Shown: positions 1,527-58,095 of the stretch, piece by piece
Numbering within the stretch: the first letter of the stretch is position 1
Layout: each line of letters begins with the position of its first letter
Source of the DNA: Geodermatophilus siccatus
GTDB lineage: Bacteria > Actinomycetota > Actinomycetes > Mycobacteriales > Geodermatophilaceae
Length of the DNA: 64,000 nucleotides
Direction: 5' to 3'
Assembly (NCBI RefSeq): GCF_900103785.1
Contig: NZ_FNHE01000004.1
Span: 372,001 to 436,000 of the forward strand
Notes under the pieces: model-generated
Databases searched by the model: none
Seen by the model: only the letters and a program-made list of their open reading frames with translations
What the model was told of the DNA's origin: nothing
Program-made: the position numbers and the translations under genes

Positions 1527-1580
1527 GGCCCCCTCGCAGGGTCCGGCCGCGAGCCTGCGAGCGGCGGGGGAAGGGGGTCC
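1527..1580. repeat. 54-bp palindromic repeat element, copy A
   Basis: Copy A of a four-copy family (others at 3750, 21268, 58041). The core GAGCCTGCGAG is flanked by an inner stem (GGCCGC/GCGGC) and an outer stem CCCCCT/AGGGGG, ending in GGTCC. It begins 5 bases past the TetR gene's stop codon (minus strand), exactly where a terminator would be. The outer stem sequence differs from copies C and D but still pairs. Confidence 0.8.
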
Positions 1581-1584
1581 TCCC

Positions 1585-2217
1585 TCAGCCGCGGCGCTCG
1601 AACAGGCCGACCAGGACGGCCGCGGCGACGTCGGCGTCCTCGGTGAGCCGGGCGGCCTGGCCGCGCTCGACGCGGGCGAGCATGAGCTCGTGGATGCCGC
1701 CGACCGCGGCGAGCACCAGGTCCGGTCCGACCGGGCGGACCTCGTCGGGGAAGCGGGCGACCAGGTCGTCGGCGGTCTCGCACAGCAGGGTCACGTAGCG
1801 GTCGAGGACGTCGCGGCGCAGCGCCAGCCCGCTGCGGCCGGCGGCCTGCACCTCCACCAGCACCGCCCAGGCGGCCTCCGGGCCGGAGGCGAGGGCGGAG
1901 AGCAGCGCCGAGACGGTGGCGTGCAGCCGGTCGCGCCACGGCAGCCCCGCCGCGGCGCCCTCCTGCTGGGTCCGGCGCAGCTCGGCGAGGACCTTGTCCG
2001 TGGCCCGGGAGACCAGCTCGAGGAGGCAGTCCTCCTTGTCGCGGAAGTGGGCGTACAGCACGGTCTTCGACACCCGGGCCACCCGCGCGATGTCGGCGAC
2101 GGTCGTGGCGCGGTAGCCCTTCTCGGCCATGCAGGTGGCCAGGGCGCCGAGGATCCGGCCGCGGCGCTGGGCGTCGTCCACGGTCGGGTCGTCGCCGAGC
2201 TCGACGAGACCCCCCAC
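1585..2217 (-). CDS. TetR-family transcriptional regulator
   Basis: 210 residues. The N-terminal DNA-binding domain (about 17-65) shows the typical TetR helix-turn-helix, ILGALATCMAEKGYRATTVADIARVARVSKTVLYAHFRDKE, followed by an all-helical ligand-binding/dimer domain. No Shine-Dalgarno is visible before the GTG at 2217, but TACAGT (2230-2225 on the minus strand) ends 7 bases before it, which fits leaderless transcription from a TANNNT -10 box. It is divergent from the MFS transporter at 2371, and the 153-bp gap would hold operators for both. The simplest reading is that it controls that exporter. The inducer is unknown. Confidence 0.85.
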   Translation of the reverse strand: MGGLVELGDDPTVDDAQRRGRILGALATCMAEKGYRATTVADIARVARVSKTVLYAHFRDKEDCLLELVSRATDKVLAELRRTQQEGAAAGLPWRDRLHATVSALLSALASGPEAAWAVLVEVQAAGRSGLALRRDVLDRYVTLLCETADDLVARFPDEVRPVGPDLVLAAVGGIHELMLARVERGQAARLTEDADVAAAVLVGLFERRG

Positions 2218-2370
2218 GCGCGGGACTGTATCGGCCCTGGCCGGTGCGGGCCCCGCGCCGACGTCCGGTGTCCGGCGTGCGGCGTGTCCGGACCGGGCAC
2301 ACCGGCACGGTGACAGACCTCACCGGGCGGACCGGGAAGAGACGGCGGCGCTCGCGGCGTCCTCCCTGAG

Positions 2371-3702
2371 GTGACGACGCCGACCGCTCCCCGACCGACC
2401 GCCCGCGCCTACGCGGTGTGGCTCGTCGCGCTGGCCGCGTACACCGTCGCGGTCTTCCACCGGGCCTCCCTCGGCGTGGCCGGGGTCGAGGCCCAGGAGC
2501 GCTTCTCCGCCGGCGCCTCGGCCGTCTCGCTGTTCCTCGTGCTGCAGCTGGTCGTCTACGCCGCGATGCAGGTGCCGGTGGGAGTGGCGCTGGACCGCTT
2601 CGGCTCGCGCCGGCTCATCCTGGCCGGCGCGCTCACCATGGCCGCCGGTCAGGCGATCCTGGCGGTGGCCGGCGACGTGCCGACGGCGATCGCGGCGCGG
2701 GTGCTCGTCGGCGCCGGCGACGCCATGACCTTCGTCAGCGTGCTGCGGGTGGTCGGGTTCTGGTTCCCCGGCCGGACCATCCCGCTGATCACCCAGCTCA
2801 CCGGCATCCTCGGCCAGTTCGGGCAGATCGTCGCGGCCTACCCGCTGGTCGCGCTGCTGCACTCGACGTCCTGGGAGGGCACCTTCCTCGGCGCGGCGGC
2901 GGTGAGCGTGCTCGTCGCCGTCCTCGTGGTCGTGGCGCTGCGCGACGCGCCGCCCGGCACCGACGTGGCCGCTCCGGCCGGGCTCGCCGAGGTGCGGCGC
3001 AGCCTGGCGCTGACCTGGCGGGAGCCGGGGACCCGCATCGGCCTCTACACGCACCTGGTCACCCAGTTCTCCGGCACCGTCTTCGCGCTGCTGTGGGGCT
3101 ACCCGTTCCTGGTGCTCGGCCAGGGCCTGAGCCCGACGACCGCCGCCGGGCTGCTCACCCTGCTCGTGGTCGTGGGCATCATCGTCGGACCGCTGTTCGG
3201 CCGGCTGTGCGGCCGCTGGCCGCTGCGCCGCTCGTCGCTGGTGTTCGGCATCCTGGCCGCGACCGCCGCGATCTGGACCGTCGTGCTGCTGTGGCCCGGT
3301 CGCGCGCCGCTGCCGCTCCTGGTGCTGCTGGTGGTCGTCCTGGGCACCAACGGTCCCGGCTCGATGATCGGCTTCGACTTCGCCCGCACCTGGAACCCCG
3401 CCGAGCGGCAGGGCAGCGCCAGCGGCGTGGTCAACGTCGGCGGTTTCGTCGCCTCGCTGCTCACCGTCCTGGCCGTGGGCGCGGTGCTCGACCTGCTCAC
3501 CCCGGGCGGTTCGACCGACTACTCGCTGGACGCCTTCCGCGCCGCGTTCGCCGTCCAGTACGTGTTCTGGGCGATCGGCCTCGTCGGCGTGGTCCGGCAC
3601 CGGCGGCAGCTGCGCGCGCGGCTGGCCCGCGACGGCGTCGTCCTCGCGCCGCTGGTCGCCGCCGTCAGCGCCCGGCTGCGGGGGCGCTCCGCCTACCGCT
3701 GA
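2371..3702 (+). CDS. MFS transporter
   Basis: 443 residues with about 12 hydrophobic segments. The loop 2-3 signature region reads VGVALDRFGSRRLILAG, a good match to the major facilitator motif G-x-x-x-D-R-x-G-R-R. The protein starts with a short polar tail and ends in an Arg-rich tail. The GTG at 2371 has no strong ribosome site, but there is no better start upstream. The divergent TetR gene (1585-2217) is its likely regulator, which is the usual arrangement for drug or metabolite exporters. Substrate is not predictable from what is visible; the general fold resembles the NarK/NNP-like and sugar-phosphate-like groups rather than 14-helix drug exporters. Confidence 0.85.
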   Translation: MTTPTAPRPTARAYAVWLVALAAYTVAVFHRASLGVAGVEAQERFSAGASAVSLFLVLQLVVYAAMQVPVGVALDRFGSRRLILAGALTMAAGQAILAVAGDVPTAIAARVLVGAGDAMTFVSVLRVVGFWFPGRTIPLITQLTGILGQFGQIVAAYPLVALLHSTSWEGTFLGAAAVSVLVAVLVVVALRDAPPGTDVAAPAGLAEVRRSLALTWREPGTRIGLYTHLVTQFSGTVFALLWGYPFLVLGQGLSPTTAAGLLTLLVVVGIIVGPLFGRLCGRWPLRRSSLVFGILAATAAIWTVVLLWPGRAPLPLLVLLVVVLGTNGPGSMIGFDFARTWNPAERQGSASGVVNVGGFVASLLTVLAVGAVLDLLTPGGSTDYSLDAFRAAFAVQYVFWAIGLVGVVRHRRQLRARLARDGVVLAPLVAAVSARLRGRSAYR

Positions 3703-3714
3703 CCGGAGGACCAG

Positions 3715-3741
3715 CCCCCCACGCCTCGCAGGCTCGGCGGG
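3715..3741. repeat. Inverted half-copy of the 54-bp element
   Basis: The sequence CGCCTCGCAGGCTCGGCGGG is nearly the reverse complement of the inner half of the element that follows (CCCGCCGCGAGCCTGCGAGGCG in copy B). Half-copy and full copy therefore face each other and could fold into one long hairpin directly after the MFS stop codon at 3702. Confidence 0.6.
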
Positions 3742-3749
3742 CCGCTGAC

Positions 3750-3804
3750 GGCCCCCGTGCAGGGGCCCGCCGCGAGCCTGCGAGGCGGGGGGGCAAGGGG
3801 GTCC
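3750..3804. repeat. 54-bp palindromic repeat element, copy B
   Basis: Second full copy: GGCCCCC arm, core CCGCCGCGAGCCTGCGAGG, then AAGGGGGTCC. It lies 47 bases downstream of the MFS stop codon and is preceded by an inverted half-copy at 3715-3741. The outer CCCCC/GGGGG pairing is intact. Confidence 0.8.
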
Positions 3805-3948
3805 TTCTCACGCCGCGTGGCCGATCCGGCACGCAGGTGGCGGACACCACCGTCGCGCCTCCTCGCCAGGCGCGCGGCCGCCCACCCGGTCCCCGCGGTC
3901 TGGCAGCGTCCGGCCCTCGGCAGGAACGGGGACGCAGGGAGGGGCGCG

Positions 3949-4584
3949 GTGTTCCGACGCAACGAGGTCCCGGCCGGTGGCGGGTCCGAGTCCGGGAGGC
4001 CGCCGTCCCCCGGGACGGCCCCCGCACCCTCCGGGCAGCTCGACGCCCTGCTCGAACCGCGACCGGTCTTCCGGGCCGCGCTGCGCGGCTACGACCGGCT
4101 GCAGGTCGACAACTACGTCGCCTGGGCCGAGACCGAGCTGCTCGCCGTCCGGCGGGCCAACGACGACCTGCTGACGCGCTACGGCGCCTGCTCGGCGGAG
4201 CTGGAGATCTCCCGCCGGCTGCTGGCCTGCTCCCCGGCCGGTCGCGAGCAGGTGCGCACCTCCGAGCGGGTCGGGGAGATCCTGCGGCTGGCCGCGGACG
4301 AGGCCGCCCGGCTGACCGAGGCCGGCGCCGCGGACGCCGACCGGATCCGCGGGGTCGCGCGGGCCGAGGCCGACGCGCTGCTGCGGCGGGCCCGCGAGGT
4401 CCGCGACGGCGCCGTCGCCGACTGCGAGCGCATGCGGGCGGAGGCCGAGGAGGCCCGGGCGGCCGCGGAGGAGGAGCTGGCGCAGGCGCACGCCGAGGTC
4501 CGCCGGCTGACCGCGCAGCTCGACGAGGTGCTGCAGGCCCTGGCAGGGGAGGAGCAACCCGCCCGCGCGCCGCTGGCCGGGTGA
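3949..4584 (+). CDS. DivIVA-like coiled-coil protein
   Basis: 211 residues. After a Pro/Gly/Ser-rich N-terminal linker, residues about 38-75 (PVFRAALRGYDRLQVDNYV AWAE) resemble the N-terminal DivIVA/Wag31 membrane-curvature module with its F...RGYD..QVD pattern. The rest is a long Ala/Glu/Arg coiled coil with heptads ending in a Leu-rich segment. DivIVA-like proteins sit at poles and septa in actinobacteria and organise cell-wall growth; this is shorter than Wag31 and is probably an accessory member. I chose GTG 3949 because GGGAGGGG lies just upstream; earlier starts would translate the preceding repeat element. Monocistronic, followed by the gluconate genes. Confidence 0.7.
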   Translation: MFRRNEVPAGGGSESGRPPSPGTAPAPSGQLDALLEPRPVFRAALRGYDRLQVDNYVAWAETELLAVRRANDDLLTRYGACSAELEISRRLLACSPAGREQVRTSERVGEILRLAADEAARLTEAGAADADRIRGVARAEADALLRRAREVRDGAVADCERMRAEAEEARAAAEEELAQAHAEVRRLTAQLDEVLQALAGEEQPARAPLAG

Positions 4585-4630
4585 GCCGCTAGCGTCGGGC
4601 CCGACCGCCAGACCCCAGCGGGAGGTGCGC

Positions 4631-6178
4631 GTGGACGTCGTCGTCGGGCTCGACTCGGGGACGACGGCGACGAAGGCGGTGACCGCGGGTGTCGACGCCC
4701 GCGTCCGCGACCTGGTGAGCGTCGGCTACCCGCTGCTGGTGCCGGGCCCCGGCCGCGCCGAGCTCGACGCCGGCCGGCTGCAGCGGGCCGCGATCGAGGC
4801 GCTCACGGCCATCGCCGGGCACGCCCGCGAGCGCGGCGACCGGGTCGTCGGGATCGCGCTGTCGGCCGCCATGCACGGGGTGGTGCCGATGGACGGCGAC
4901 GGCGCGCCGCTGGGGCCGCTGGTCACCTGGGCCGACGCCCGGGCCACCGAGTGGGCGCGGGCGCTGCACGCCGACGGGCGCGCCCCCGCCCTGCACGCCC
5001 GGACCGGCACGCCGGTGCACGCGATGTCGCCGCTGGTGAAGCTGTCCTGGGAGCGGGCGCAGGACGGCGGACGGGTGGGCGCGACACCGCGGTGGGGCGG
5101 GGTCAAGGAGCTCGTCCTCGCGGCGCTGTGCGGCGGCCCGCAGGTGGTCGACCGCTCGTGCGCCTCGGCGACCGGGATGTACGACATCCGCGCCGGCCGG
5201 TGGGACGACGAGGCGCTGGACATCGCCGGCGTGCGGGCCGACCAGCTCGGCGAGGTGCTGCCCACGACCGCGGTGCTGCCCGCCCTGCGCGCCGACGTGG
5301 CCACCGCGGCCGGGCTGCCCGCCGACACCCCGGTCGTCGTCGGGGCCTCGGACGGGGTGCTGGCCAACCTCGGCGTGGGCGCGGTGCGCCCGGAGGTCGC
5401 CGCGGTCTCGCTGGGCACCAGCGGCGCGATGCGGGTCGTCGTCCCCACGCCCCGGGTGGACCCCGGCCGCCGGCTGTTCTGCTACGCCCTCACCGACGAG
5501 CACTGGGTGCTCGGGGGAGCGGTGAACAACGGCGGGTCGGTGGTGCGCTGGGCCTCCATCGCCCTGGCCGTCGAGCCCGGGGAGCACGAGCCGCAGGGCG
5601 AGGAGGCCGACGCGCTCGACGCCCGGCTGCTCGAGGAGGCGGCAGACGTCCCCGCCGGGAGCGCCGGGCTGCTGTGCCTGCCCTACCTGCTCGGCGAGCG
5701 GGCGCCGTGGTGGCGCTCGGGCCTGCGCGGGGCCTACCTGGGGCTGCGCCGGGAGCACCGCCGGCCGCACCTCGTCCGGGCCGCGGTGGAGGGCGTCTGC
5801 CAGCAGCTGGCGCTGGTGCACGACGCGTTCGCCGCGAGCGACGCCCCGGTGCGGGAGGTGCGCGCCACCGGGGGAGCGGTGGCCTCGCCGCTGTGGGTGC
5901 GCACGCTCGCCGCCGCCCTCGACCTGCCGGTGCGGGTCGCCGACTCACCGGAGGGCACCGCCCTGGGCGCCTGCCTGCTCGGGCTGCACGCGCTCGGCGC
6001 GCTGCCCGACCTCGACGCCGCGACCGCGCTGGTGACCGTGCACGACCCGGTCGAGCCGGACCCGGCCGACGCCGCGGTCTACCGCGAGCTGCGGCCGCTG
6101 GTGGAGCGCTCCACCGACGCGCTGACCGACGTCCTGACCGCGCTGGACGCCCTCGACGACCCGCCCCACCCCGTCTGA
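4631..6178 (+). CDS. gntK: Gluconokinase, FGGY family
   Basis: 515 residues of the FGGY carbohydrate kinase fold: ATP-phosphate loop 1 at the N-terminus (VVGLDSGTTATKA), VTWADARATEW in the substrate region, the second phosphate loop VSLGTSGAMRVVV, and the C-terminal ATGGAVASPLWV adenosine motif. It would phosphorylate D-gluconate to 6-phosphogluconate in the cytoplasm. The assignment as gluconokinase rather than xylulokinase or glycerol kinase rests partly on the GntP-type permease 31 bp downstream. GTG 4631 is preferred over GTG 4625, because GGGAGG (4619-4624) is then six bases away. No GntR-type regulator is adjacent. Confidence 0.85.
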   Translation: MDVVVGLDSGTTATKAVTAGVDARVRDLVSVGYPLLVPGPGRAELDAGRLQRAAIEALTAIAGHARERGDRVVGIALSAAMHGVVPMDGDGAPLGPLVTWADARATEWARALHADGRAPALHARTGTPVHAMSPLVKLSWERAQDGGRVGATPRWGGVKELVLAALCGGPQVVDRSCASATGMYDIRAGRWDDEALDIAGVRADQLGEVLPTTAVLPALRADVATAAGLPADTPVVVGASDGVLANLGVGAVRPEVAAVSLGTSGAMRVVVPTPRVDPGRRLFCYALTDEHWVLGGAVNNGGSVVRWASIALAVEPGEHEPQGEEADALDARLLEEAADVPAGSAGLLCLPYLLGERAPWWRSGLRGAYLGLRREHRRPHLVRAAVEGVCQQLALVHDAFAASDAPVREVRATGGAVASPLWVRTLAAALDLPVRVADSPEGTALGACLLGLHALGALPDLDAATALVTVHDPVEPDPADAAVYRELRPLVERSTDALTDVLTALDALDDPPHPV

Positions 6179-6209
6179 CCCGCCGTCCGATCCCCACGAG
6201 GAGGAACCC

Positions 6210-7673
6210 GTGCCCGAGGTCGAACCGGCGTTCGGTGCCGGCCCGCTGCTGCTCATCGCGGCCGCCGCGGTCGGCGTCCTGCTGTTCCTGATCATGAAGC
6301 TCAAGCTGCACGCGTTCCTCGCGCTGGTGCTGGTCAGCCTGCTCACCGCGCTGGCCACCCGGATCCCGCTCGAGGACGTCGTCACCACGCTGACCGGCGG
6401 CTTCGGCACGACCCTGGCCAGCGTCGCGCTGCTGGTCGGGCTGGGCGCGATGCTCGGCCGGCTGCTCGAGCACAGCGGTGGCGCGCAGGTGCTCGCCGAC
6501 AGCCTGATCGGCCGGTTCGGGGAGAAGCGGGCGCCGCTGGCCCTCGGCGTGGCCGCGCTGCTGTTCGGCTTCCCCATCTTCTTCGACGCCGGGCTGGTCG
6601 TCTTCCTGCCGATCGTCTTCACGGTCGCCCGCCGGCTGGGCGGGTCGCTGCTGACCTACGGGCTGCCCACCGCCGGTGCCTTCGCGGTGATGCACGCCTT
6701 CGTGCCGCCGCACCCGGGGCCGGTCGCGGCCGCCGAGCTGGTCGGCGCCGACATCGGCCTGGTGCTGGTGTTCGGCCTGGTCGTCGGCCTGCCGACCTGG
6801 TACCTCGGCGGCTACCTGTTCGGCCTGTGGGCCGGCCGCCGCTACGACGTCGCGGTGCCGCACATCCTCGACGACGACGCTGTGCGGACGGCCGACGACG
6901 AACCCGACCCCTCGGTGGAGGGCACCTCGCCGGGCATCGCGTCGACCGGCGGGCGGGCCACGGAGACCGCGACCCGGCCGGCGCCGCCGCGCTTCGGCAC
7001 GGTCGTCGGCATCCTGCTGCTGCCACTGGTGCTCATCTTCCTCAACACCGGGCTCTCCACGCTGGCCAGCGCGGGCGCGGTGGCCGAGGACTCGTTCCTG
7101 GTGCGCGCCGGTCAGCTGCTCGGCGCCACCCCGGTGGCCCTGCTCATCACCGTGCTCGTGGCGATGGTCGTGCTCGGCGTGCGCCGCGGGGAGAGCGGCG
7201 CCCAGGTCGAGTCGATCGTCAACAGCGCCCTGGGACCGGTGTGCGCGATCATCCTGATCACCGGCGCCGGCGGCATGTTCGGCGGCGTGCTGCGGGCCAG
7301 CGGCATCGGCCAGGCGTTGGCCGACGTCCTCGGGGACATCGGGCTGCCGGTCATCGTGGCGGCGTTCGTCATCTCGGTGCTGCTGCGGGTGGCGCAGGGG
7401 TCGGCGACGGTCGCGCTGACCACCGCCGCCGGGCTGATGGCGCCGGTGGTCGAGGCGACCGAGGGGCTCTCGCAGGTCGACCTGGCACTCGTCGTCATCG
7501 CGATCGCCGGTGGGGCGACGGTGCTGTCGCACGTCAACGACTCCGGCTTCTGGCTGGTCAGCCGTTTCTTCCGGATGGACGAGAAGACGACGCTGAAGAC
7601 CTGGACGGTCATGGAGACCCTGCTGGGCACCATCGGTTTCCTCATCGCGCTGGTGCTGAGCCTGTTCCTGTGA
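6210..7673 (+). CDS. gntP: GntP-family gluconate:proton symporter
   Basis: 487 residues, 12 or more hydrophobic segments. Diagnostic GntP stretches include GFGTTLASVALLVGLGAMLGRLLEHSGGAQ, FGFPIFFDAGLVVFLPI, HAFVPPHPGPVAAAELVGAD and the C-terminal VNDSGFWLVSRFFRM. It imports gluconate or a related sugar acid for the kinase directly upstream. There is a long hydrophilic cytoplasmic loop at about residues 220-265 rich in Asp, Thr and Pro. GTG 6210 has GAGGAGGA just upstream. The 31-bp spacing from gntK makes a two-gene operon, ended by the inverted repeat at 7697. Confidence 0.9.
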   Translation: MPEVEPAFGAGPLLLIAAAAVGVLLFLIMKLKLHAFLALVLVSLLTALATRIPLEDVVTTLTGGFGTTLASVALLVGLGAMLGRLLEHSGGAQVLADSLIGRFGEKRAPLALGVAALLFGFPIFFDAGLVVFLPIVFTVARRLGGSLLTYGLPTAGAFAVMHAFVPPHPGPVAAAELVGADIGLVLVFGLVVGLPTWYLGGYLFGLWAGRRYDVAVPHILDDDAVRTADDEPDPSVEGTSPGIASTGGRATETATRPAPPRFGTVVGILLLPLVLIFLNTGLSTLASAGAVAEDSFLVRAGQLLGATPVALLITVLVAMVVLGVRRGESGAQVESIVNSALGPVCAIILITGAGGMFGGVLRASGIGQALADVLGDIGLPVIVAAFVISVLLRVAQGSATVALTTAAGLMAPVVEATEGLSQVDLALVVIAIAGGATVLSHVNDSGFWLVSRFFRMDEKTTLKTWTVMETLLGTIGFLIALVLSLFL

Positions 7674-7696
7674 GCCGGTCCCTCTCGCCCGCCGCC

Positions 7697-7752
7697 GATC
7701 GTGGCGCGGTGACCACCGCTGGGTCGCCAGGAGTGGTCACGGCGCCGTGATC
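7697..7752. terminator. Hairpin of the GATCACGGCGCC family, copy 1
   Basis: Imperfect inverted repeat with 20-nt arms: GATCGTGGCGCGGTGACCAC (7697-7716) faces GTGGTCACGGCGCCGTGATC (7733-7752). It lies 24 bp after the gntP stop codon. The right arm is almost the same sequence as both arms of the hairpin at 12989-13044, so these are two members of one hairpin family. Confidence 0.6.
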
Positions 7753-7841
7753 GCGACCGAGGACGGAGGTCGGTGACGCCGGGCGCAGACCCCGCGGCGA
7801 CGGGACCGCCGCAACCGGGGCCGCGGTGGCATCGTGGCGCG

Positions 7842-9524: not shown

Positions 9525-9570
9525 CTACGGTCCCTCCCTGAGCCCAGCCGTCCGAGGTCTGGAGCCGCTG

Positions 9571-9849: not shown

Positions 9850-10013
9850 CCGGCTGTCCGCCCTGGCCGGGGAAGGCGTGGTGGCGACCAGGACGACAGG
9901 CGGACCGGCGGCCCGCCGCCGGACGACGGCGGCTCCCGCCGAGCGCGACCGGCCCCGCACGGCCCGTCGACCGCGGGCTGCACCCAGCACGAGACAGATC
10001 GGAGTGTGGCGAC

Positions 10014-14947: not shown

Positions 14948-15007
14948 GGCTGACGTCCGGTCGGTCGTCTCGTCCCCGCTCGGGGAGCCTGACCGGACGC
15001 CGCCGAG

Positions 15008-15158
15008 TCGTGTCCGCCACCAGCGGGCGCGAGCCGGGGACCCACCGCAGTACTGGGGTGAATCCCGCCCGCGAGCACGAACCGCGGGCCGGTAGGGCTG
15101 CTTCCCGCCCGAACCCGTCAGCTAACTCGGTAGGCGGCTCACGGAAGAACGGAGCACC
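15008..15158 (+). ncRNA. c-di-AMP riboswitch (ydaO/yuaA class)
   Basis: The hallmark segments of the ydaO class appear in order: an initial CCGCCACCAGCGGGCGCGAG with CCGGGGACCCACCGCAG, then GGGGTGAATCCCGC, GGTAGGGCTGC, and the highly conserved CGAACCCGTCAGCTAACTC followed by GGTAGGCGG and ACGGAAGA. In actinobacteria this riboswitch typically precedes cell-wall hydrolase/Rpf genes and reduces their expression when c-di-AMP is high. Here it controls the transglycosylase gene at 15368, after an unusually long 3' leader of about 200 nt that contains a small ORF. Confidence 0.92.
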
Positions 15159-15367: not shown

Positions 15368-16207
15368 ATGGACACCAAGCAGTTCCCGGCCGTCCCGGCC
15401 ACCGACGCCCCCGCCGACCGGAGCGCCCGCCGTCCACTGCGGCTGCCCACCCGCGGCCGCCGCCCGGCGATCCTGCTGGCCACCGCCGCCGCCGGTGCGA
15501 TCGTCGTCAACACCGTCATCGGCGCGCAGCCGGCCGCCGAGGCCGAGGCCGAGACGGTGACGGCCTCGATGAGCGTCGCCGAGCAGCTCGGCATCACCGA
15601 GGAGTCGGCGCAGCAGCCGCTCGCCGCCCCGGGCGCCACCGAGCTGGCCCCGCTGCAGGACCTCGCCGCCTCCCGCAGCGAGCGCCAGGTCGCCGAGGCG
15701 CAGGCCGCGCAGGTCCAGGCCGCTGCCGAGCAGGCCGAGCTGGACCGCCAGGCCGCCGAGAAGGCCGCCGCCGAGCAGGCCGCCCGCGAGGCCGCGGAAA
15801 AGGCCGCCGCCGAGCAGGCCGCTCGCGAGGCCGCGGAGCGCGACGCCGCCGCGAAGAAGGCCGCCGCCGCGCCGGCTGCGGCTCCCGCCGCCAGCAGCTC
15901 GTCGTCGTCCGCCGCGCCGCGCGGCTCCTTCAAGGACTACGCGATGAGCAAGGTCGGCAGCGCCGAGCAGTTCAGCTGCCTGGAGAAGCTGTGGGGCAAG
16001 GAGAGCGGCTGGAACCCCAACGCGCAGAACCCCACCAGCACCGCCTACGGCATCCCGCAGTTCCTGAACTCGACCTGGGCCAGCACCGGCATCGCCAAGA
16101 CGTCGGACGGCTACCGCCAGATCGACGCGGGCCTGATCTACATCGAGAGCCGCTACGGCAGCCCCTGCGGCGCCTGGGCGCACTCGCAGTCCACCGGCTG
16201 GTACTGA
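15368..16207 (+). CDS. Secreted Rpf-like/lytic transglycosylase with coiled coil
   Basis: 279 residues. Residues about 1-33 are polar and basic; about 34-52 are hydrophobic (ILLATAAAGAIVVNTVIGA), a signal peptide or anchor. Residues about 55-185 are an Ala/Glu coiled coil with imperfect repeats of EKAAAEQAAREAAE and a Ser-rich linker. The C-terminal domain (about 190-279), SFKDYAMSKVGSAEQFSCLEKLWGKESGWNPNAQNP...AYGIPQFLNSTW, is a compact transglycosylase-like fold with catalytic Glu in GKESGW and two Cys (SCLEK, SPCGAW) that may form a disulfide. It would cleave or remodel peptidoglycan outside the cell. The c-di-AMP riboswitch upstream links it to osmotic and wall homeostasis. The ribosome site GGAG is 13 bases from ATG 15368, rather far. 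Confidence 0.88.
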   Translation: MDTKQFPAVPATDAPADRSARRPLRLPTRGRRPAILLATAAAGAIVVNTVIGAQPAAEAEAETVTASMSVAEQLGITEESAQQPLAAPGATELAPLQDLAASRSERQVAEAQAAQVQAAAEQAELDRQAAEKAAAEQAAREAAEKAAAEQAAREAAERDAAAKKAAAAPAAAPAASSSSSSAAPRGSFKDYAMSKVGSAEQFSCLEKLWGKESGWNPNAQNPTSTAYGIPQFLNSTWASTGIAKTSDGYRQIDAGLIYIESRYGSPCGAWAHSQSTGWY

Positions 16208-16320
16208 GCGAGGACCCCGTCCTCCCCACCCCTCTCGGGCTCGGGGCGGGACCCGGGACGGGGCCGCCTCCTGCCCCCCGCAGGCCGGAGGTCGACGGCA
16301 CCGAGGGCCGTCCCCGCACC

Positions 16321-16500
16321 GCGGGGGCGGCCCTCGGCCGTTCCCGGGCCGTGGGGGCGGCCCTCGGCCGTTCCCGGGCCGTGGGGGCGGCCCTCGGCCG
16401 TTCCCGGGCCGTGGGGGCGGCCCTCGGCCGTTCCCGGGCCGTGGGGGCGGCCCTCGGCCGTTCCCGGGCCGTGGGGGCGGCCCTCGGCCGTTCCCGGGCC
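16321..16500. repeat. Tandem array, six 30-bp units
   Basis: Six head-to-tail copies of a 30-base unit (GTGGGGGCGGCCCTCGGCCG then TTCCCGGGCC). Units two to six look identical; the first differs at one base (GCGGGGG). Each junction can form GGGCC/GGCCC hairpins and each unit holds CGGCC...GGCCG. The array fills the gap between the transglycosylase stop (16207) and the methyltransferase start (16518). It may stall or terminate transcription. Unit length is a multiple of three, so all frames stay open, but I see no reason to think it is translated. Confidence 0.9.
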
Positions 16501-16517
16501 GTGGTGGACTGCGAGGT

Positions 16518-20726: not shown

Positions 20727-21602
20727 GTGCCCGACGCCGTCGTGGCCCGCGCCCGGCTGCGCGCGGACTGCACCCGCTGCGCCGGGCTGTGCTGCGTCGC
20801 CCCGGCGTTCGCCGCCTCGGCCGACTTCGCCATCGACAAGCCGGCCGGGCACGCCTGCCCGAACCTGCGGGACGACGACCGCTGCGGCATCCACGCGCAG
20901 CTGCGCGAGCGCGGCTTCCCCGGCTGCACGGTCTTCGACTGCTTCGGCGCCGGGCAGCAGACGGTGCAGGTGACCTTCGGCGGCGCCCCGCACTGGCGGG
21001 ACTCCCCGGAGCAGGCGGCGGCGGTGTTCGCGGCCTTCGGCGTCCAGCGGCTGCTGCACGAGCTGCTCTGGTACCTCACCGAGGCGCTCACCCTCGAGGC
21101 CGCCGCGCCGCTGCACCGGGAGCTGGCCGCCGCGCACGAGCGCACCGCCGGCCTCACCGCCGCCGGCCCGGGCGAGCTCGCGGCCGTCGACGCCGGCGCC
21201 CTGCAGGCGGAGGTCGGCGCGCTGCTGCTGTCGGTCAGCGAGCTGGCGCGGGCCGGCGCCCGCAGGCGGCCCTCCGCAGGGGCCCGCCGCGAGCCTGCGA
21301 GCGGCGGGGGGCGGAGGGTCCTCCATCGGCGCAACGCCGACCTCGTCGGCGCCGACCTGCGGCGCGGGGACCTGCGCGGTGTCAGCCTGCGCGGGGCCCT
21401 GCTGATCGGGGCGGACCTGCGCGGCGCCGACCTGTCCCTGACCGACCTGCTCGGCGCCGACCTGCGGGGTGCGGACGTGCGCGGCGCCGATCTCTCCGGC
21501 GCGCTGTTCCTCACCCGGCGCCAGGTGGCCGGCGCCCGCGGCGACGCCGCGACCCGGCTGCCGGCCGGGCTCGAGCACCCGGCGCACTGGGAGGCGGCAT
21601 GA
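20727..21602 (+). CDS. YkgJ-type Cys-cluster protein fused to pentapeptide repeats
   Basis: 291 residues. The N-terminal part (about 6-80) has a dense Cys set: [45 protein letters not shown], consistent with a zinc or iron-sulfur cluster domain like YkgJ. The C-terminal part (about 203-265) is pentapeptide repeats ([54 protein letters not shown]), which build a right-handed beta helix. Between them, residues about 181-199 ([20 protein letters not shown]) are encoded by copy C of the 54-bp repeat element, in frame. GTG 20727 follows GAGGAG by six bases. Role unknown; the stop overlaps the next small ORF (ATGA). Confidence 0.8.
21268..21321. repeat. 54-bp palindromic repeat element, copy C, inside a gene
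   Basis: GGCCCTCCGCAGG, then CCCGCCGCGAGCCTGCGAGC with GGCGGGGGGCGGAGGGTCC. The outer stem CCCTCCG/CGGAGGG pairs perfectly although its sequence differs from the other copies. It lies entirely inside the YkgJ-pentapeptide gene; 54 is a multiple of three, so the frame is preserved and the element becomes an Arg/Ser/Gly linker. Confidence 0.85.
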
Positions 21603-36323: not shown

Positions 36324-36696
36324 GACGGCTCAGGCCGCCCCTCAGGGCAGGACACCGCTGCTGTCTCAAGAGTTGCCTTGCGTTCCTGGGCGACCCATTA
36401 AGGGGTCGACGCAGCGGTGACGCTCTGGTGACGTCTGCGTGACGGTCGCCCGTGCAGACTCCGCCCTCTTTGCTGTGGTCGAATCTCGAGCCGGATGGCG
36501 TATCGAGCCTCGCCTCAGCTCGACGATCAGCTTTGATCCTTGGGGGTGAGAATAGGTACAAGTGGTCACGGACGAGCGATCGCGCCGACGCCCTATTCAG
36601 GAGCGAAATGAACACGCGCCGGCAATCTCGGCAAACGGTGTTTTCACCTGTCGAACTGCGCGTCGTCTATCCGTATGGATCTCACGGAGGACTCCA
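36324..36696. other. 373-bp gap upstream of the KAP gene
   Basis: No gene is supported here. The stretch is lower in GC and should contain the promoter of the KAP gene; TTGATC near 36532 followed about 18 bases later by TACAAG is the best but weak match. GGAGG at 36686-36690 is the KAP ribosome site. Short direct GTGACG-type repeats occur around 36416-36445 (GGTGACGC, GGTGACGTC, CGTGACGG), which could be a regulator site. Confidence 0.3.
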
Positions 36697-38304
36697 GTGG
36701 TGAACTACAGCTCTTTTCGTATTCTTCTGGACACGCCCGCGAAAGCGCCTGGACTGGGTTTTACGCACTACGCCGAGGCTCTGGCGGAAGTGGTATCGGA
36801 AAGTCCCGCACGTTTCGCAGTAGGGATCTTCGGAGACTGGGGAGCCGGCAAGACCACTTTGATGCGAGCGGTCCAAAACCTCCTGGCAGCAGATTCTGGA
36901 GTGCTGACAGTTGAGTTCAATGCCTGGCGTTACGAGCGGGAGCCCGACCTGATCGTGCCATTGCTGGATATAATGCGGGACAGGCTATTAAAACTTACGG
37001 CCGACAACGATGAGGCCGACGATGATCGTCAGCAGATGATTCGTCGCGCAGCTAGCCGCATCGCTCGAGCCGCGCGCGCAATACTCCACGGATCGACGGT
37101 CACTCTGAAGACACCTGTAGTGGACGTTGGACTGAACGCGGGTGCAATACTGGATGAATGGTCGAAGGGGGCGCAGACGCAAGCTCCATCACTGCAATCG
37201 TTCTATCATGCGGCCTTCAAAGAGTTGGAGGGAGCCGCGGGTGATTTCCGAGAGGCCGGCCTAGAGCGCGTGGTCGTCTTCATCGACGACTTAGACCGAT
37301 GCCTCCCGTCCCAAGCGCTGCAGGTCCTCGAGTCTATGAAGTTATTCTTCGATCTTGAGGGATTTGTTTTCGTCTGCGGACTTGATCAGGACCTCGTTGC
37401 GCGAGCAGTTTCGTCCAAGTATCCAACGCCCGCCACCGAGGCTGTCGAACACGTGTCCGGCAGTGAGTACATTCAGAAGATATTCCAATTACCGTTCGCA
37501 CTGCCGCGCATTACTTCGGCTGACCTCAGGCACTACAACGAGGTGCTGCTTCGAGACAGCGATTGGGCTGACGATCAGAAGGTGGACTACAACGTAGTCG
37601 TCCGGCACCATCTGAGATTTCTCGTCGAGAATGACACCGTTAATCCGCGAGAGGTCAAGAGACTGATCAATTCGTATGTCATCCAGATGAAGATCCTTAC
37701 GCGGCGGCTCGCCGTCGTGGATCCGAACATCGTCATGATCCTCCAACTTATGGGCTCCCGTTCCGACTGGCGACCTCAGTACTTGGCGCTAGCGGCAGAT
37801 CCACAGTTGTACGTTTCGACGGTCCTGCAGCCGGAACTCGCGGATGGCCAGGGTGTCAATGACGGAGCGCCGCAGTTGCCACCATCTTTGTACAACTACT
37901 TGAACCAGGAGGGGCGGGCGCTGTTGTCTGTGCCTGATTTGGGCCCATACGTGCTCGCCGCGGAGTCAACTCGTTCGACCGACACAACTTTGATCACAAT
38001 CCAAGCGGCACTGAGACGGCTTCGCGCCGCCATTGCCGACTTGGCGGTGAATGTGCAACCGCAGACCGTTCAAGCAGTTCAGGAGCAATTGAGGCCCCTT
38101 AGCTCTCTGGGTGCGAGACGCAGCGGCCCGTTAGCGGCACGCTGGAAGCAACAGGCCGTGCAGTTGGAGGCCTTGGTTGAGGAGCTTCATCCGAATCAAG
38201 GAGAGCTGCCGCAAGGCTGGAGTGAGCGGGTCACCAGGACGGTTGACCAACTAGATCTTATTGCGCGCGAACTTCGAAGTGAGTCAACGTTCGGGGAAAC
38301 GTGA
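36697..38304 (+). CDS. KAP-family P-loop NTPase
   Basis: 535 residues. The N-terminal YAEALAEVVSESPARFAVGIFGDWGAGKTTLMRAV holds the Walker A motif (residues 46-53, GDWGAGKT); FNAWRYE (about 74-80) is the characteristic KAP motif after it; Walker B is VVVFIDDLDRC (192-202), followed by LESMKLFFDLEGFVFVCGLDQDLVARAV, SEYIQKIFQLPFALP and REVKRLINSYVIQMKIL. This is a STAND-related KAP ATPase; unlike membrane KAPs I see no transmembrane insertion, so it is probably cytosolic. The C-terminal 150 residues are helical and of unknown role. KAP ATPases occur in phage-defence loci and may act alone. GTG 36697 (or 36700) follows GGAGG. Codon use and GC differ strongly from neighbours. Confidence 0.88.
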   Translation: MVNYSSFRILLDTPAKAPGLGFTHYAEALAEVVSESPARFAVGIFGDWGAGKTTLMRAVQNLLAADSGVLTVEFNAWRYEREPDLIVPLLDIMRDRLLKLTADNDEADDDRQQMIRRAASRIARAARAILHGSTVTLKTPVVDVGLNAGAILDEWSKGAQTQAPSLQSFYHAAFKELEGAAGDFREAGLERVVVFIDDLDRCLPSQALQVLESMKLFFDLEGFVFVCGLDQDLVARAVSSKYPTPATEAVEHVSGSEYIQKIFQLPFALPRITSADLRHYNEVLLRDSDWADDQKVDYNVVVRHHLRFLVENDTVNPREVKRLINSYVIQMKILTRRLAVVDPNIVMILQLMGSRSDWRPQYLALAADPQLYVSTVLQPELADGQGVNDGAPQLPPSLYNYLNQEGRALLSVPDLGPYVLAAESTRSTDTTLITIQAALRRLRAAIADLAVNVQPQTVQAVQEQLRPLSSLGARRSGPLAARWKQQAVQLEALVEELHPNQGELPQGWSERVTRTVDQLDLIARELRSESTFGET

Positions 38305-50037: not shown

Positions 50038-50155
50038 CAGCGCCTCTCCAGCGTCCGGCGTGGTCAGCGGGTCTCGCGGCGAGCCCGACGACGACGCTAG
50101 GCAGTGGGTGCCGCCGCCGGAAATGCCGCTGCGACCGCGCCTATGCTCCGCAGGC

Positions 50156-51013: not shown

Positions 51014-51071
51014 GCATGGCGGACCGGCGTGCCGGGGATGCCGCCGAGGTGCCCCACAGGGGCCCGCTCCG

Positions 51072-51131
51072 GGGTGGACTCCGCCTGCCGCGGCACACGT
51101 CGCCGCCCCCGAGGCTTGCAGGAGTCCACCC
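51072..51131. terminator. Inverted repeat after the LysR gene
   Basis: GGGTGGACTCC (51072-51082) and GGAGTCCACCC (51121-51131) are perfect 11-base arms around a 38-base centre that contains its own TGCCGCGGCA palindrome. It lies 58 bp past the LysR stop codon and just before the end of the DUF222 remnant. Confidence 0.45.
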
Positions 51132-51145
51132 GAGCTGGCCGTCCG

Positions 51146-51868: not shown

Positions 51869-51907
51869 CCGTTCCTGGCCCGCCGGCGCCGGGCCAGGCA
51901 GGCGTGG

Positions 51908-53146: not shown

Positions 53147-53411
53147 GCGCGTTCCTCCAGGGGGATCGGGGACGCCCATCGTCGCGCAGCACCGGCCGGC
53201 CACTCCGCAGCGGTGGTGGGCGGCACCTCCGCGGGGACCGGGCGCAGCAGACCGGGCTGGTGCCTCCCGGGCACGTCGGCCCGGGATGTCGGTTCAGGCC
53301 AGCCCCGCTGACGTCCCCGATGCGGTTGCCGAGGACGTCGAGGACCAGCAGCGTCGGGACGGTCCCGAGCGGCGTGGGGTCGACGACCCCCTGCCGGACG
53401 CCGACCGGTGG

Positions 53412-54314
53412 TCAGCGGGGGGCGACGGCGCCGCGGAAGCGGAGCGTCTGGCCCGGCCGCAGCTGGCCGCAGCGGTCGACGTCGGCGTCCTCGACGTAGC
53501 CGATCACCGGGTAGCCGCCGGTCACCGGGGCGTCGGCCAGGAAGAGGACCGGCTGCCCGGACGGCGGCACCTGCAGCGCGCCGCGCACCATGCCCTCGCT
53601 GGCCAGCTCGCCGGCCCGCGACCGCTCCAGCGCGACGCCGGCCAGCCGCAGGCCGATCCGGTTGCTCTCGCCGGTCACCTCCCAGGCGGTCGTGGTGAGG
53701 GCGGCCGCGGCCTCGGCGGGGAACCAGTCGGCGCGCGGGCCGGGGAGCACCCGCACGGTCACCTCGCCGCCGGGGGGGTCGGGCACCGGCGCGAGGTCCA
53801 CCCCCGGCATCGGTGCCGTGGGCTCGCCGACGGGCAGGACGTCACCGGCGGAGAGCGCCGGCGGGCCGAGGCCGGAGAGGAGGTCGGTCGAGCGGCTGCC
53901 GAGCACCGGCTCGACGGCGATCCCGCCGCGGACGGCGACGTAGGTGCGCAGCCCCGTCGGCGGCAGGCCCAGCCGCAGCTCGCGCCCGGCCCGCAGCACC
54001 GTCGGGGCGTTGTGCGCGCCGGAGCACCGGGCGCCGGTCGTGGCCACCACCAGGTCCGCGCCCGTCCGCAGCACCAGCCCGCCGAGGGTCACCTCGAGCA
54101 CGGCGGCGTCCGGAGGGTTGCCCACCAGCCGGTTGGACAGCCGTGCGGCGGCCCGGTCGCAGGCGCCGGACCGGCCGATGCCGAGCGCGCCCTGCCCGGG
54201 CCGGCCGCCGTCCTGGACGGTGGTCAGCGGGCCGGTCGCCAGCACGGTGAGGGAGCGCGTCGCTCCGCCCTGCGACGCGGCGCGGCCGGTCACGTGACCT
54301 CCGTGCAGCGTCAC
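53412..54314 (-). CDS. pxpC: 5-Oxoprolinase subunit C (KipA-like)
   Basis: 300 residues of the biotin-dependent carboxyltransferase/KipA fold: LTVLATGPLTTVQDGGRPGQGALGIGRSGACDRAAARLSNRLVGN, ALEVTLGG-type region, YVAVRGGIAVEPVLGSRSTDLLSGLG, and SSEGMVRGALQVPPSGQPVLFLADAPVTGGYPVIG. With PxpA and PxpB it forms the ATP-dependent 5-oxoprolinase. GTG 54314 overlaps the pxpB stop (GTGA) and GTG 54293 lies 21 bases later; both have a GGAGG four bases upstream within nearly the same CACGGAGGTC context, so the start is ambiguous. Confidence 0.9.
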   Translation of the reverse strand: MTLHGGHVTGRAASQGGATRSLTVLATGPLTTVQDGGRPGQGALGIGRSGACDRAAARLSNRLVGNPPDAAVLEVTLGGLVLRTGADLVVATTGARCSGAHNAPTVLRAGRELRLGLPPTGLRTYVAVRGGIAVEPVLGSRSTDLLSGLGPPALSAGDVLPVGEPTAPMPGVDLAPVPDPPGGEVTVRVLPGPRADWFPAEAAAALTTTAWEVTGESNRIGLRLAGVALERSRAGELASEGMVRGALQVPPSGQPVLFLADAPVTGGYPVIGYVEDADVDRCGQLRPGQTLRFRGAVAPR

Positions 54315-54922
54315 CGGACCTCCGTGAAGCGGACCCGGACGCCGGGACGCAGCAGCGCCGCCGGCTCGCGGTCGACGTCGAAGACGGCGACGTCGGTGCG
54401 ACCGATCAGCTGCCAGCCGCCCGGGGACTCCCGCGGGTAGACGCCGCTGAACTCACCGGCCAGTGCCACCGAGCCGGGCGGCACCTTGGTCCGCGGGCTG
54501 CTCCGGCGCGGGACGTGCCACGGCTCGCCGTCGGGGGTCAGGTAGCCGAAGCCGGGGGCGAAGCCGCAGAAGGCGACGGTCCACTCCGTGCCGGTGTGCC
54601 GGCGCACCACCTCGGCGGCGTCCACGCCCAGGTGCGCGGCGACGTCGGCCAGGTCGGAGCCGTCGTAGACGACCGGCAGCTCGACCAGCTCCCCGCCGTC
54701 GCGCCGGCCGGAGCGGGGCGTCGTCTGCCGCACCGCCTGCTCCACGGCCGCGAGACCGGTCACCGCGGGGTCGGTCACCAGCAGCACGGTGCGCGCCGCG
54801 GGGACGACGTCCACCACCCCCTCGACCGGCTCGGCCGTGAGCGCGGCGTACAGCCCGAGGACCTCGTCGAGGCCGTCGAGCTCGACCAGCAGCGCGGTCG
54901 ACCCGCTGGGCAGGACGCGCAT
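54311..54922 (-). CDS. pxpB: 5-Oxoprolinase subunit B (KipI-like)
   Basis: 203 residues of the allophanate-hydrolase subunit 1 type: RVLPSGSTALLVELDGLDEVLGLYAAL, VELPVVYDGSDLADVAAHLG, VAFCGFAPGFGYLTPDGEPWHVPRRSSPRTKVPPGSVALAGEFSGVYPRESPGGWQLIGRT. The CGFAPGFGYL and PGGWQLIGRT blocks are diagnostic for KipI/PxpB. It is the ATP-using partner of PxpC. The start codon shares one base with the pxpA stop (TGATG). Confidence 0.92.
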   Translation of the reverse strand: MRVLPSGSTALLVELDGLDEVLGLYAALTAEPVEGVVDVVPAARTVLLVTDPAVTGLAAVEQAVRQTTPRSGRRDGGELVELPVVYDGSDLADVAAHLGVDAAEVVRRHTGTEWTVAFCGFAPGFGYLTPDGEPWHVPRRSSPRTKVPPGSVALAGEFSGVYPRESPGGWQLIGRTDVAVFDVDREPAALLRPGVRVRFTEVR

Positions 54923-55674
54923 CAGGCGGCGAACGGTGCCAGCGAGACCCCGGCCGCGGTGAGGGCCTCGCGCACCTGCCGGGCGATCGCCACCGCGCCG
55001 GGGGTGTCGCCGTGGACGCAGATCGAGTCCGGCGCCAGCCGCAGCAGTCCGCCCTCGACGTCGGTGACCGGCTCGCCGGTGGCCATCGCGACGCAGCGGC
55101 GGGCGATCTCGCCGGGGTCGTGCAGCACCGCGCCGGGCAGCCGGCGGGAGACCAGGGTGCCCTCGGGGGTGTACTCGCGGTCGGCGAACGCCTCGGCCAC
55201 CGTCGTCAGCCCGGCCTCGTCGGCCAGCCGCAGCCAGGCCGACCCGGGCAGCCCGAGCACCGGCAGCTCGCGGTCGTACTCGACCACCGCCCGCACCACC
55301 GCCGCCGCCTGCTCCTCGTGCGTGACGATCGTGTTGTAGAGCGCGCCGTGCGGCTTGACGTAGCGCACCCGGGAGCCGGCGACCTTGGCGAACGCCTCGA
55401 GCGCGCCGATCTGGTAGAGCACGTCGGCGGTCAGCTCGTCCGGCTCCACGTCGATGAAGCGGCGGCCGAAGCCGGCGAGGTCGCGGTAGCCCACCTGGGC
55501 GCCGATCGCGACGCCGGTCTCCGCGGCCCGGGCGCAGACCCGGTACATGATCGACGGGTCGCTCGCGTGGAAGCCGCAGGCCACGTTGGCGCTGGTGACG
55601 ACGTCCAGCAGCGCCTCGTCGTCCCCCAGGCGCCACTGGCCGAAGCCCTCGCCGAGGTCGGAGTTGAGGTCCAT
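54922..55674 (-). CDS. pxpA: 5-Oxoprolinase subunit A (LamB/YcsF family)
   Basis: 250 residues: [43 protein letters not shown] start, [41 protein letters not shown], and [21 protein letters not shown] at the end, all classic LamB/YcsF. The His/Asp/Glu cluster ([23 protein letters not shown]) forms the metal site that attacks the activated 5-oxoproline ring. ATG 55674 has GGGAGG nine bases upstream. Middle gene of transporter-pxpA-pxpB-pxpC. Confidence 0.94.
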
Positions 55675-55688
55675 CCCGTCAGCCTCCC

Positions 55689-56927
55689 TCACGAGAACAG
55701 CGCGATCACCGGGCGGATCGAGTTGACCGCCAGGTAGATCGTGAGCAGCCAGGCCACCCAGCCGACCACGAGCAGCCAGCGCGGGTAGCGGTATCCGTGC
55801 AGGAGGTCGGACCGGCGGGTGGCCACCCAGAGGATGACCGCGATCCCGATCGGCAGCAGCAGGCCGTTGAACGCACCGGCGAAGACCAGCAGCGTGGTCG
55901 GGGCGGCACCGAGGAGGAGGAAGGCCAGCGTGGTGACGGCGATGAAGCCGACCACCAGCAGCGTGCGGGTGCGGTCGCTGGTGCGGGTGCGGGAGGTGAC
56001 GAAGGAGATGGTCGTGTAGGAGGCGCCGATGACGCTGGTGATCGCCGCGGCCCACAGCACGACGCCGAAGACCCGCAACCCGATCTCGCCCGCCGCGGCC
56101 TGGAAGGCGTTGGCGGCCTGGTTCTCCGTGCCGAGGTCGGCGCCACCGGCCACCACGCCGAGGATGGCGAGGAAGAGGACGACCCGCATGATCCCGGTGA
56201 TCACGATCCCGGTGACCGAGCCGCGGGTGATGTCGCGGACGTGCTCCCGGCCGGTGACCCCGGAGTCGAGCAGCCGGTGGGCGCCGGCGTAGACGATGTA
56301 GCCGCCGATCGTGCCGCCGACCAGCGTGGTGATCGCCAGGAAGGAGACCTGCTCGGGGAGGACGACGTTGCGCAGCGCCCGGCCGACCGGCGGGCCCGAG
56401 GTGATCGCGATGTAGGCGGTCAGCCCGATCATCAGCAGGCCGAGGACGACGACGATCCGGTCGACGGCGACCCCCGCCCGGCGGCTGAGGAAGATCCCGA
56501 TCGCGATGACGGCCGACACCGCGCCACCGATCCTCGGATCCAGCCCGATCATCGCGTCGAAGCCGAGGCCCGCGCCGGCGACGTTGCCGATGTTGAACAC
56601 CAGCCCGCCGATCAGCAGGAACGCGGCCATCACCCAGCCCAGGCCGGGGGCGACGAGGTTGCCCAGCTCCTGGGCCCGCCGGCCGCTGACCCCGATCACC
56701 CGCCACACGTTCAGCTGCAGCGCGATGTCGATGACGATCGACACGGCGATGGCGAACGCGAACGCGGCACCCAGCTGGACGGTGAACGTCGTCGTCTGGG
56801 TGATGAAGCCCGGGCCGATGGCCGAGGTGGCCATGAGGAACATCGCGCCGAGCAGGGTCGAGCGCGTGCCCGCGGCCATGCGGCTGCTGGCCGGGGCGGT
56901 GGTGGCGGGTTCGTGGCTCTGCGACAT
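55689..56927 (-). CDS. NRAMP-like transporter of the pxp operon, lacking metal motifs
   Basis: 412 residues with about 11 hydrophobic segments of NRAMP fold. The TM1 block [15 protein letters not shown] aligns with NRAMP GPGF..., but the metal-binding DPGN is replaced by TVQL; in TM6 [18 protein letters not shown], the MPH motif is replaced by GGY. It is therefore unlikely to carry Mn2+ or Fe2+. B. subtilis ycsG, also NRAMP-related, lies in the ycs/kip cluster that encodes 5-oxoprolinase, and this gene is 14 bp from pxpA; I infer that it imports 5-oxoproline or a related compound. ATG 56927 follows GGAG by six bases; GTG 56939 is an alternative. Confidence 0.82.
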
Positions 56928-57223
56928 GGGCTTCTCCACGACGGCGGGGATCCGACGCTAGGGGCCCTTGCAGGGAGCGGCAACGCGAGGGCGGGCGGCG
57001 TCCCGTCCGCGTGGGCAGCCGGCCGCTCGGCGACGACCACGGGGTCGGCGCGGCGACACGCCGGGGCTCGTCCGCGTGTCGCCCCGCAGCTCCGTGATCG
57101 TCCGCGGGGTCGGACGGGGCAGGGGGGCGGGGACAGCTGCAGGAGGACCTGCGGGCGAGCCGGGCGGGAGTGAGCGGGGGACCATGGGCACCTGGCCTCT
57201 CGCGACCGACCGAGGAGGACCCC
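56928..57223. promoter_or_regulatory. 296-bp divergent control region of the pxp cluster
   Basis: The gap between the NRAMP-like gene and the divergent DUF1445 gene, presumably with both promoters. An inverted repeat GGCGACACG/CGTGTCGCC occurs around 57050-57083. I cannot identify reliable -35/-10 pairs. No gene is supported. Confidence 0.35.
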
Positions 57224-58012
57224 GTGACCGCCACGATGCCCGCCGCCGACCCCGCGGTCGCCCGTGAGCACTACCGCGCCGGCCTGGCCGTCCCGTCGTC
57301 GGGCTGGGCGCCCGGCTACACCCAGGCCAACCTCGTCGTCGTCCCGCAGGACTGGGCCTACGACGTGCTGCTGTTCGGGCAGCGCAACCCGAAGCCGGTG
57401 CCCCTGCTCGACGTGACCGACGCGGGGTCGACGTCCACCGCGCTGGCGCCGGGGGCGGACCTGCGCACCGACCTGCCGCGCTACCGGGTGTGGCGGGACG
57501 GCGAGCTGGTCGACGAGCCGACCGACGTCGTCGACCTGTGGCGCGACGACCTGGTGACCTTCCTCATCGGGTGCAGCTTCAGCTTCGAGACCGCGCTGCT
57601 GGACGCCGGTGTGCCGGTGCGCAACATCGAGCAGGGCCGCAACGTGTCGATGTACCGCACGAACCGGGCCTGCCGCCCCGCCGGCCGGCTGTCCGGGCCG
57701 CTGGTGGTGTCGATGCGGCCGGTGCCCGGCGAGCTGGTGGCCGCCGCGGTGCAGGTGACCGCCCGGATGCCCCAGGTGCACGGGGCGCCGGTGCACGTCG
57801 GTGTGCCCGAGGCCCTGGGCATCGCCGACCTCGCCCGGCCGGACTTCGGCGACCCGGTCGAGCTCGCCGACGGCGACGTCCCGGTGTTCTGGGCCTGCGG
57901 GGTCACCCCGCAGGCGGCGCTCATGGCCTCCCGGCCGCCGTTCGCGATCACCCACGCGCCGGGGCACATGTTCGTCACCGACGTCCCCGACGCGGTCTAC
58001 CGGCAGAGCTGA
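57224..58012 (+). CDS. DUF1445 putative hydro-lyase (YcsI-like)
   Basis: 262 residues matching the DUF1445/D-glutamate-cyclase-like family: [138 protein letters not shown]. Relatives include D-glutamate cyclase, which makes 5-oxo-D-proline, so a role feeding 5-oxoproline to the divergent pxpABC enzyme makes sense. GTG 57224 has AGGAGGA six bases upstream. Confidence 0.88.
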
Positions 58013-58040
58013 GGCCCCGGCGTTCGGAACCGTCGGGAGC

Positions 58041-58095
58041 GGCCCCTCTGCAGGGACCCGCGCCGAGCCTGCGAGGCGTGGGGGCAGAGGGGTCC
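58041..58095. repeat. 54-bp palindromic repeat element, copy D
   Basis: GGCCCCTCTGCAGG..., core GAGCCTGCGAGG, ...GCAGAGGGGTCC. The outer stem CCCCTCTG/CAGAGGGG is a perfect pairing of different sequence from copies A-C. It lies between the convergent DUF1445 (stop 58012) and argG (stop 58102) genes, again a terminator position. Confidence 0.82.

Follow-up and report, generated by a model that had tools for sequence, protein, structure and literature searches.

The question raised by this locus is what a palindromic element of about 54 bp is doing in the 64,000-nt stretch of the Geodermatophilus siccatus genome analyzed here (the window), for which four copies and three candidate roles, namely a terminator, a small-RNA or protein binding site and a non-autonomous mobile hairpin, had originally been predicted. 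The analysis of the window, the own genome and related genomes indicates that the element is probably one of a family of mobile hairpins, REP-like and non-autonomous, that belongs to the Geodermatophilaceae. Its scale, its stop-codon register, its antisense reading and its nesting could not have been seen by the original prediction.

The four predicted copies (A to D) were all found at the positions given for them, with the core GAGCCTGCGAG and the arms that had been quoted for them. A covariance-model search of the window, which took in 72 of 90 sequence sources, raised the number from four to six, and since the two further copies lie on the opposite strand, the uniform plus orientation that had been claimed does not hold. 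The copies are listed below, the strand being the sense strand, i.e. that of the abutted gene.

1527-1580, minus strand: copy A, type I, imperfect; follows a minus-strand TetR-type gene (1585-2217), with GGACC 4 nt past its CTGA stop (1585-1587)
3705-3754, plus strand: degenerate copy (E 0.00017); follows a plus-strand MFS transporter gene (2416-3702), with GGACC (3708-3712) 5 nt past its CTGA stop (3700-3702)
3750-3804, minus strand: copy B, inverted and adjoining the degenerate copy; its sense side has GTGA 3 nt before GGACC but lacks a called gene stop
16209-16266, plus strand: fifth full copy, type II; GGACC at 16212-16216, 4 nt past the CTGA stop (16205-16207) of an SLT-domain gene (15368-16207, plus strand)
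21268-21321, minus strand: copy C, 54 bp within a called pentapeptide-repeat gene (20727-21602, plus strand), with in-frame read-through of 18 codons
58041-58095, minus strand: copy D, type I; follows a minus-strand argininosuccinate synthase gene (58102-59550), with GGACC 6 nt past its CTGA stop (58102-58104)

Three copies had been placed directly after stop codons; this is correct for A and D, each after a minus-strand stop, and not for B, and both additional copies follow plus-strand stops. The one copy said to be inside a gene is indeed C. It is in frame, with the N-terminal part of the product on one side and the pentapeptide repeats on the other, and its palindrome may therefore be translated; a copy with similar flanks was found in an ORF of the relative G025.

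The family is real and far larger than first noted. When up to 3 mismatches were allowed, a 26-base core pattern gave 123 + 114 = 237 matches on the two strands of the 5.2-Mb genome, against 2 + 1 for the reversed pattern, and the covariance model, which was built from 34 copies of the G. siccatus genome, matched at least 152 places in it. A sequence profile detected 60 copies in 400 kb of the own contig C20 and 6 in the window, which suggests approximately 500-800 copies per genome if this one contig stretch and the window, on which the density estimate is based, are typical. An iterated profile yielded 241 matches in approximately 1.4 Mb of the own and eight related genomes, and none in the reversed sequence. 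The 11-mer core alone is weak, with 7 window matches (at most 1 mismatch) where 4.5 were expected, 20 of 100 shuffles reaching 7. Among the 66 matches in the window and the C20 stretch, 63 were outside called genes. The element is therefore a REP in the broad sense: palindromic, present in more than 100 copies per genome and mainly intergenic.

Matches to the covariance model were obtained in at least 35 of 61 genomes, including the own genome and all 25 congeners. Eight of 11 genomes from other Geodermatophilaceae genera had matches; G029, G032 and G034 had none, and G028 only 4, among the matches listed. Only one of 24 genomes from other families of the order gave a match, a single weak one (E 1e-4). 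The exact core pattern was present in at least 114 stretches of a species-genome collection, and the 114 listed were all titled Geodermatophilus, Blastococcus, Modestobacter, Trujillonella, Geodermatophilaceae or Frankiales MAG. These results show that the element is spread over the Geodermatophilaceae. The search of the genome and of relatives with a covariance model, which the original prediction had proposed, thus returned at least 152 places in the own genome and a family-wide distribution, and the copies show covariation above that of shuffles.

Genes were called by a purpose-written codon-usage caller and not taken from annotation, with at least one ORF missed. For the 66 copies in the window and C20, on the strand first described, 43 in tandem gene pairs were antisense and 6 in the same sense, 13 were convergent, 1 divergent and 3 intragenic; the corresponding numbers for 41 copies in the relatives' stretches were 20, 1, 14, 1 and 5, respectively. 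The constant feature is therefore the orientation to the abutting gene, to which the form first written is antisense, and the natural reading is its reverse complement, STOP-N4-GGACC...GGCC. In this sense form the unit comprises a short purine-rich head (approximately NGRA), GGACC, an outer and an inner stem, a loop with GCTCG and the GGCC end. At least three subfamilies with a common plan and different arms were distinguished by eye, and a crude rule assigned 193 copies to type I (103), type II (77) and type III (13). Visual inspection also suggested a possible pseudoknot between loop and bulge.

The compensatory change that had been predicted was borne out and extends to both stems. In an alignment of 83 distinct copies from the own and related genomes, which was fitted to the covariance model and so leans towards it, 13 of 19 pairs were changed on both sides (shuffles 7.1), pairing was kept in 96.2% of cells and the covariation score reached 0.302, compared with 0.135 for shuffles and no more than 0.085 for slid structures. 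The folding energy of single copies was unusual only for C (z -2.34) and D (z -2.26) and unremarkable for A (z 0.03) and B (z -0.32). It had been argued that such a pattern reflects selection on a fold and not only recent copying; the fold-keeping covariation stands, but the contrast was too sharp, as the data show both folding constraint and turnover. In a sequence-only alignment of 405 distinct sequences, the inner stem on the strand first described contained 394 G.T and 37 A.C combinations; 358 of the 394 G.T sit at two positions, and elsewhere the ratio of G.T to A.C was 36 to 29. Alignments fitted to the model, which lean on it, gave 225 to 12 and 225 to 36. At those two positions the antisense strand retains a wobble where the sense mRNA would have a mismatch, which hints, and no more, that the constrained fold is that of a folded single DNA strand or an antisense RNA.

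The position of the sense start relative to genes is precise. It lay -2 to +10 nt from a called stop in 129 of the 241 matches, compared with 18 for the other end. GGACC could be anchored in 232 copies (the other 9 of the 241 had no anchor or were too near a sequence end), and 126 of these were adjacent to the stop of a called gene, 70 of them with exactly four bases between stop and GGACC. All 70 followed TGA, the stop of 86.7% of all genes (P = 5e-5), and 64 of the 70 followed CTGA, compared with 64.9% of TGA genes (P = 5e-7). At other spacings some stop-adjacent copies follow TAA or TAG. A second set, from the 114 named loci listed, agrees, although it was fetched by the type I core pattern and so favors type I, and its locus L280 may overlap the first set: of 181 anchored copies 114 were stop-adjacent and 84 at four bases, all 84 after TGA and 77 after CTGA, while the 30 copies at other spacings followed TAG (16), TGA (12) and TAA (2). 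Among gene 3' ends in the stretches studied that have at least 60 bp to the next gene, a gap which the element itself helps to widen, 89 of 439 tandem and 33 of 212 convergent ones carried the element after the stop. An element four bases after CTGA was found at 64 of 688 gene-end CTGA and at 2 of 593 other noncoding CTGA; as non-gene CTGA is hardly used, simple TGA targeting is insufficient. TGA as a part of the element was also rejected, because nested copies mostly lack it. A replication-strand bias was considered and set aside in G024, where the 150 copies listed collapsed to 137 and the two arms differed weakly (47/28 versus 24/38, P = 0.006), the strand of the genes being a likely cause.

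Element presence was compared between species at orthologous stops, using own genes with at least three orthologs and one genome per species. The counts given below are stops with the element in both genomes, in the own genome only, in the other only and in neither, respectively.

C20 and G025: 11, 9, 6, 49
C20 and G016: 16, 4, 4, 52
C20 and G003: 13, 7, 6, 46
C20 and G009: 6, 9, 5, 39
C20 and G017: 4, 3, 1, 12
C20 and G014: 7, 10, 3, 53
C20 and G013: 7, 8, 4, 42
C20 and G024: 6, 9, 2, 47
Window and G025: 2, 0, 2, 38
Window and G016: 2, 0, 3, 37
Window and G003: 1, 1, 0, 40

Presence is thus shared above chance, yet frequently different. Where sequences were read (12 genes), the same stop often bore different subfamilies across species. 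At C20 gene 198, where the species share one sequence context, TGA and the element were found in the own genome, G003, G013 and G014, and TAG without the element in G025, G016 and G009; gene 161 compared with G014 is similar. The own gene 154 carries the element after TAG, and gene 147 ends in TAA or TAG in several species. Pairs of filled and empty sites are few (22 listed, several with untidy alignments), and species divergence blurs the junction and any target duplication. Of the features of MITEs, the ends are inverted repeats by structure, and one 13-nt direct repeat flanks a truncated copy.

Many copies that are not at a stop occupy the loop of a second one, e.g. in some species at C20 genes 152, 159, 167 and 188. 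Among comparable systems, cyanobacteria have short dispersed repeats, tiny hairpins that insert into other repeats. Nesting is three deep in G025, and the G017 counterpart of copy A is one copy within another. The claim of nesting is based on a match of arms. Among 87 non-stop copies with definable ends (39 of the 232 copies, without a clear 3' end, being left out of the set), 59 had an element 5' arm on the left, and the matching 3' arm was on the right in 34 of these 59, compared with a mean of 13.3 and a maximum of 24 in 200 re-pairings. The 106 stop-adjacent copies included 11 with the left arm and none with the matching right arm. The left junction of nested copies is mostly CCG or TCG and approximately nine loop bases are missing, so host loops are replaced, not merely interrupted. 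Two other measures were discarded. A complementarity score was too insensitive: a value of at least 9 was reached by 10 of the 87 non-stop copies, by 1 of the 106 stop-adjacent ones and by 5.9% of re-paired flanks. Rejoined flanks matched the profile in 32 of 87 non-stop and 0 of 106 stop-adjacent copies, but re-paired flanks did so in 26, 16 and 20 of 87, and this test therefore shows only that the flanks are element halves. Tandem and mosaic arrays were also seen, and a second motif (approximately GTTCCAGYACGTCACC) follows many copies, with 59 places at up to 3 mismatches, some of them not beside a copy. In the C8 stretch of G003 (G03b, approximately 94433-94591), a tandem array with a period of approximately 46 bp has the 5' half of the element replaced by a GTTCCAGYACGTCACC-like motif.

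That copies stand behind stops, often at a fixed distance, or within the loop of a further copy suggests a mobile element, and among the candidate roles originally proposed the non-autonomous mobile hairpin is best supported, by turnover and nesting. New copies would arise by insertion next to a CTGA that ends a gene or into the loop of a hairpin, perhaps as a folded single strand on which an enzyme acts in trans, with the wobbles at two pair positions hinting at a constrained fold on the strand antisense to the gene. Against this reading, neither an insertion in progress nor a mobilizing gene was found. A Y1 transposase (PF01797, RAYT-type) was detected in none of 25 genus genomes (own plus 24, G025 and the other Geodermatophilaceae genera being outside the search), so the genus genomes searched do not indicate a REP mobilized by RAYT; overall, 2 of 41 genomes, both of other families, had one, and E. 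coli and 4 further controls were positive. Reverse transcriptase was rejected as a driver, as it is absent from the own genome and patchy in the genus (13 of 26). The missing transposase (Y1, 25 genus genomes) would suit a spread without a dedicated enzyme, by template switching between hairpins during replication or repair together with gene conversion, as would the replaced loops with approximately nine bases gone, the tandem and mosaic arrays and the 13-nt repeat around one truncated copy. The four-base CTGA register at unrelated genes is left unexplained by such a process, which we regard as unlikely. Also unlikely is a specific form of the mobile-hairpin reading, in which an undescribed kind of enzyme would insert the element in connection with translation termination and with the exposed loops of its own copies; the gene-end and other noncoding CTGA counts (64/688 versus 2/593) would then mean that the functional stop is found and not only a DNA word.

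A simple target word does not account for the exact stop register. The register and orientation, together with the preference for gene-end over other noncoding CTGA and the covariation, speak for a 3'-UTR RNA element used by the host as a terminator, 3'-end stabilizer or protein-binding hairpin and kept after stops by selection. That orthologous stops share the element in part speaks for it too and would also agree with inheritance and retention, and the T content of the first 8 nt after the hairpin slightly exceeds the intergenic mean (0.169 versus 0.119). However, none of 106 copies had TTTT within 12 nt of the hairpin on the sense strand, so that the T-run of an intrinsic terminator is lacking, and a further downstream hairpin was as common with the element (19 of 123 genes) as without it (80 of 622; shuffled sequence 2.4%), which means that the element is no replacement for a terminator. 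The terminator proposed originally is thus unsupported, with neither a T-run nor a deficit of other hairpins, and is unlikely as the main role. Nor would a device acting as sense RNA predict loop nesting or the antisense-strand wobble bias at two positions, and we give a host-used RNA element only a small share of credence. Transcripts presumably include the copies located in 3' UTRs, which may influence mRNA ends as a by-product. A chance product of a genome with 75% GC would agree with the near-expected number of the 11-mer and the ordinary folding of A and B, but the reversed-pattern and reversed-sequence controls and the covariation contradict it, and it can practically be dismissed.

Several known systems are comparable. 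According to the part of Di Nocera et al. 2013 (PMC3733652) drawn on here, GTAG/CGTC REPs are short high-copy palindromes, mostly intergenic and near gene 3' ends, some within other palindromes or genes; GTAG REPs often provide a TAG stop, and CGTC REPs have no transposase on record, their mode of movement being left open. The present element resembles them in copy number and location, but has a longer two-stem hairpin (approximately 54 bp), the four-base CTGA register and self-nesting in the apical loop, and its position table contains no GTAG or CGTC end tag, the head consensus before GGACC being NGRA. The main text of that paper has no mention of Geodermatophilus, Blastococcus, Frankia or Actinobacteria. 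REP/RAYT systems and REPINs, in the portions of Nunvar et al. 2010 (PMC2817692) and Bertels and Rainey 2011 (PMC3116915) used here, are likewise non-autonomous palindromes with hundreds of copies and mosaic clusters; unlike them, the present family lacks Y1 transposase in 25 genus genomes, and its arrays are, by inspection, direct and nested, not mainly inverted doublets. Rickettsia palindromic elements, as outlined in PMC3733652, place a palindrome in frame inside a protein gene, as in copy C, whereas most copies here are extragenic. No description of the present family was found in the literature searched, which mostly excluded subscription papers. With its stop register, its nesting and no RAYT in the genus genomes searched, the family is a concrete test case for the movement of REP-like elements, a question that PMC3733652, in its passage on CGTC REPs, also leaves open.

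Other features of the window were recorded. At the gathering score of Rfam 15 the element matched no family, the sole match in the window being a c-di-AMP riboswitch (RF00379, 62 bits) at 14991-15151, upstream of the SLT-domain gene whose stop carries the fifth copy. Just 3' of that copy, at 16306-16504, a 30-bp unit is repeated 6.6 times (97% matches); the unit looks like a conserved hairpin that relatives carry behind this gene, and the array gives the impression of an amplified terminator-like hairpin. An ORF of 580 aa (36562-38304), missed by the codon-usage caller, contains a P-loop and a FIDDLDRC motif, which we take to recall KAP-type NTPases, and is perhaps an acquired gene.
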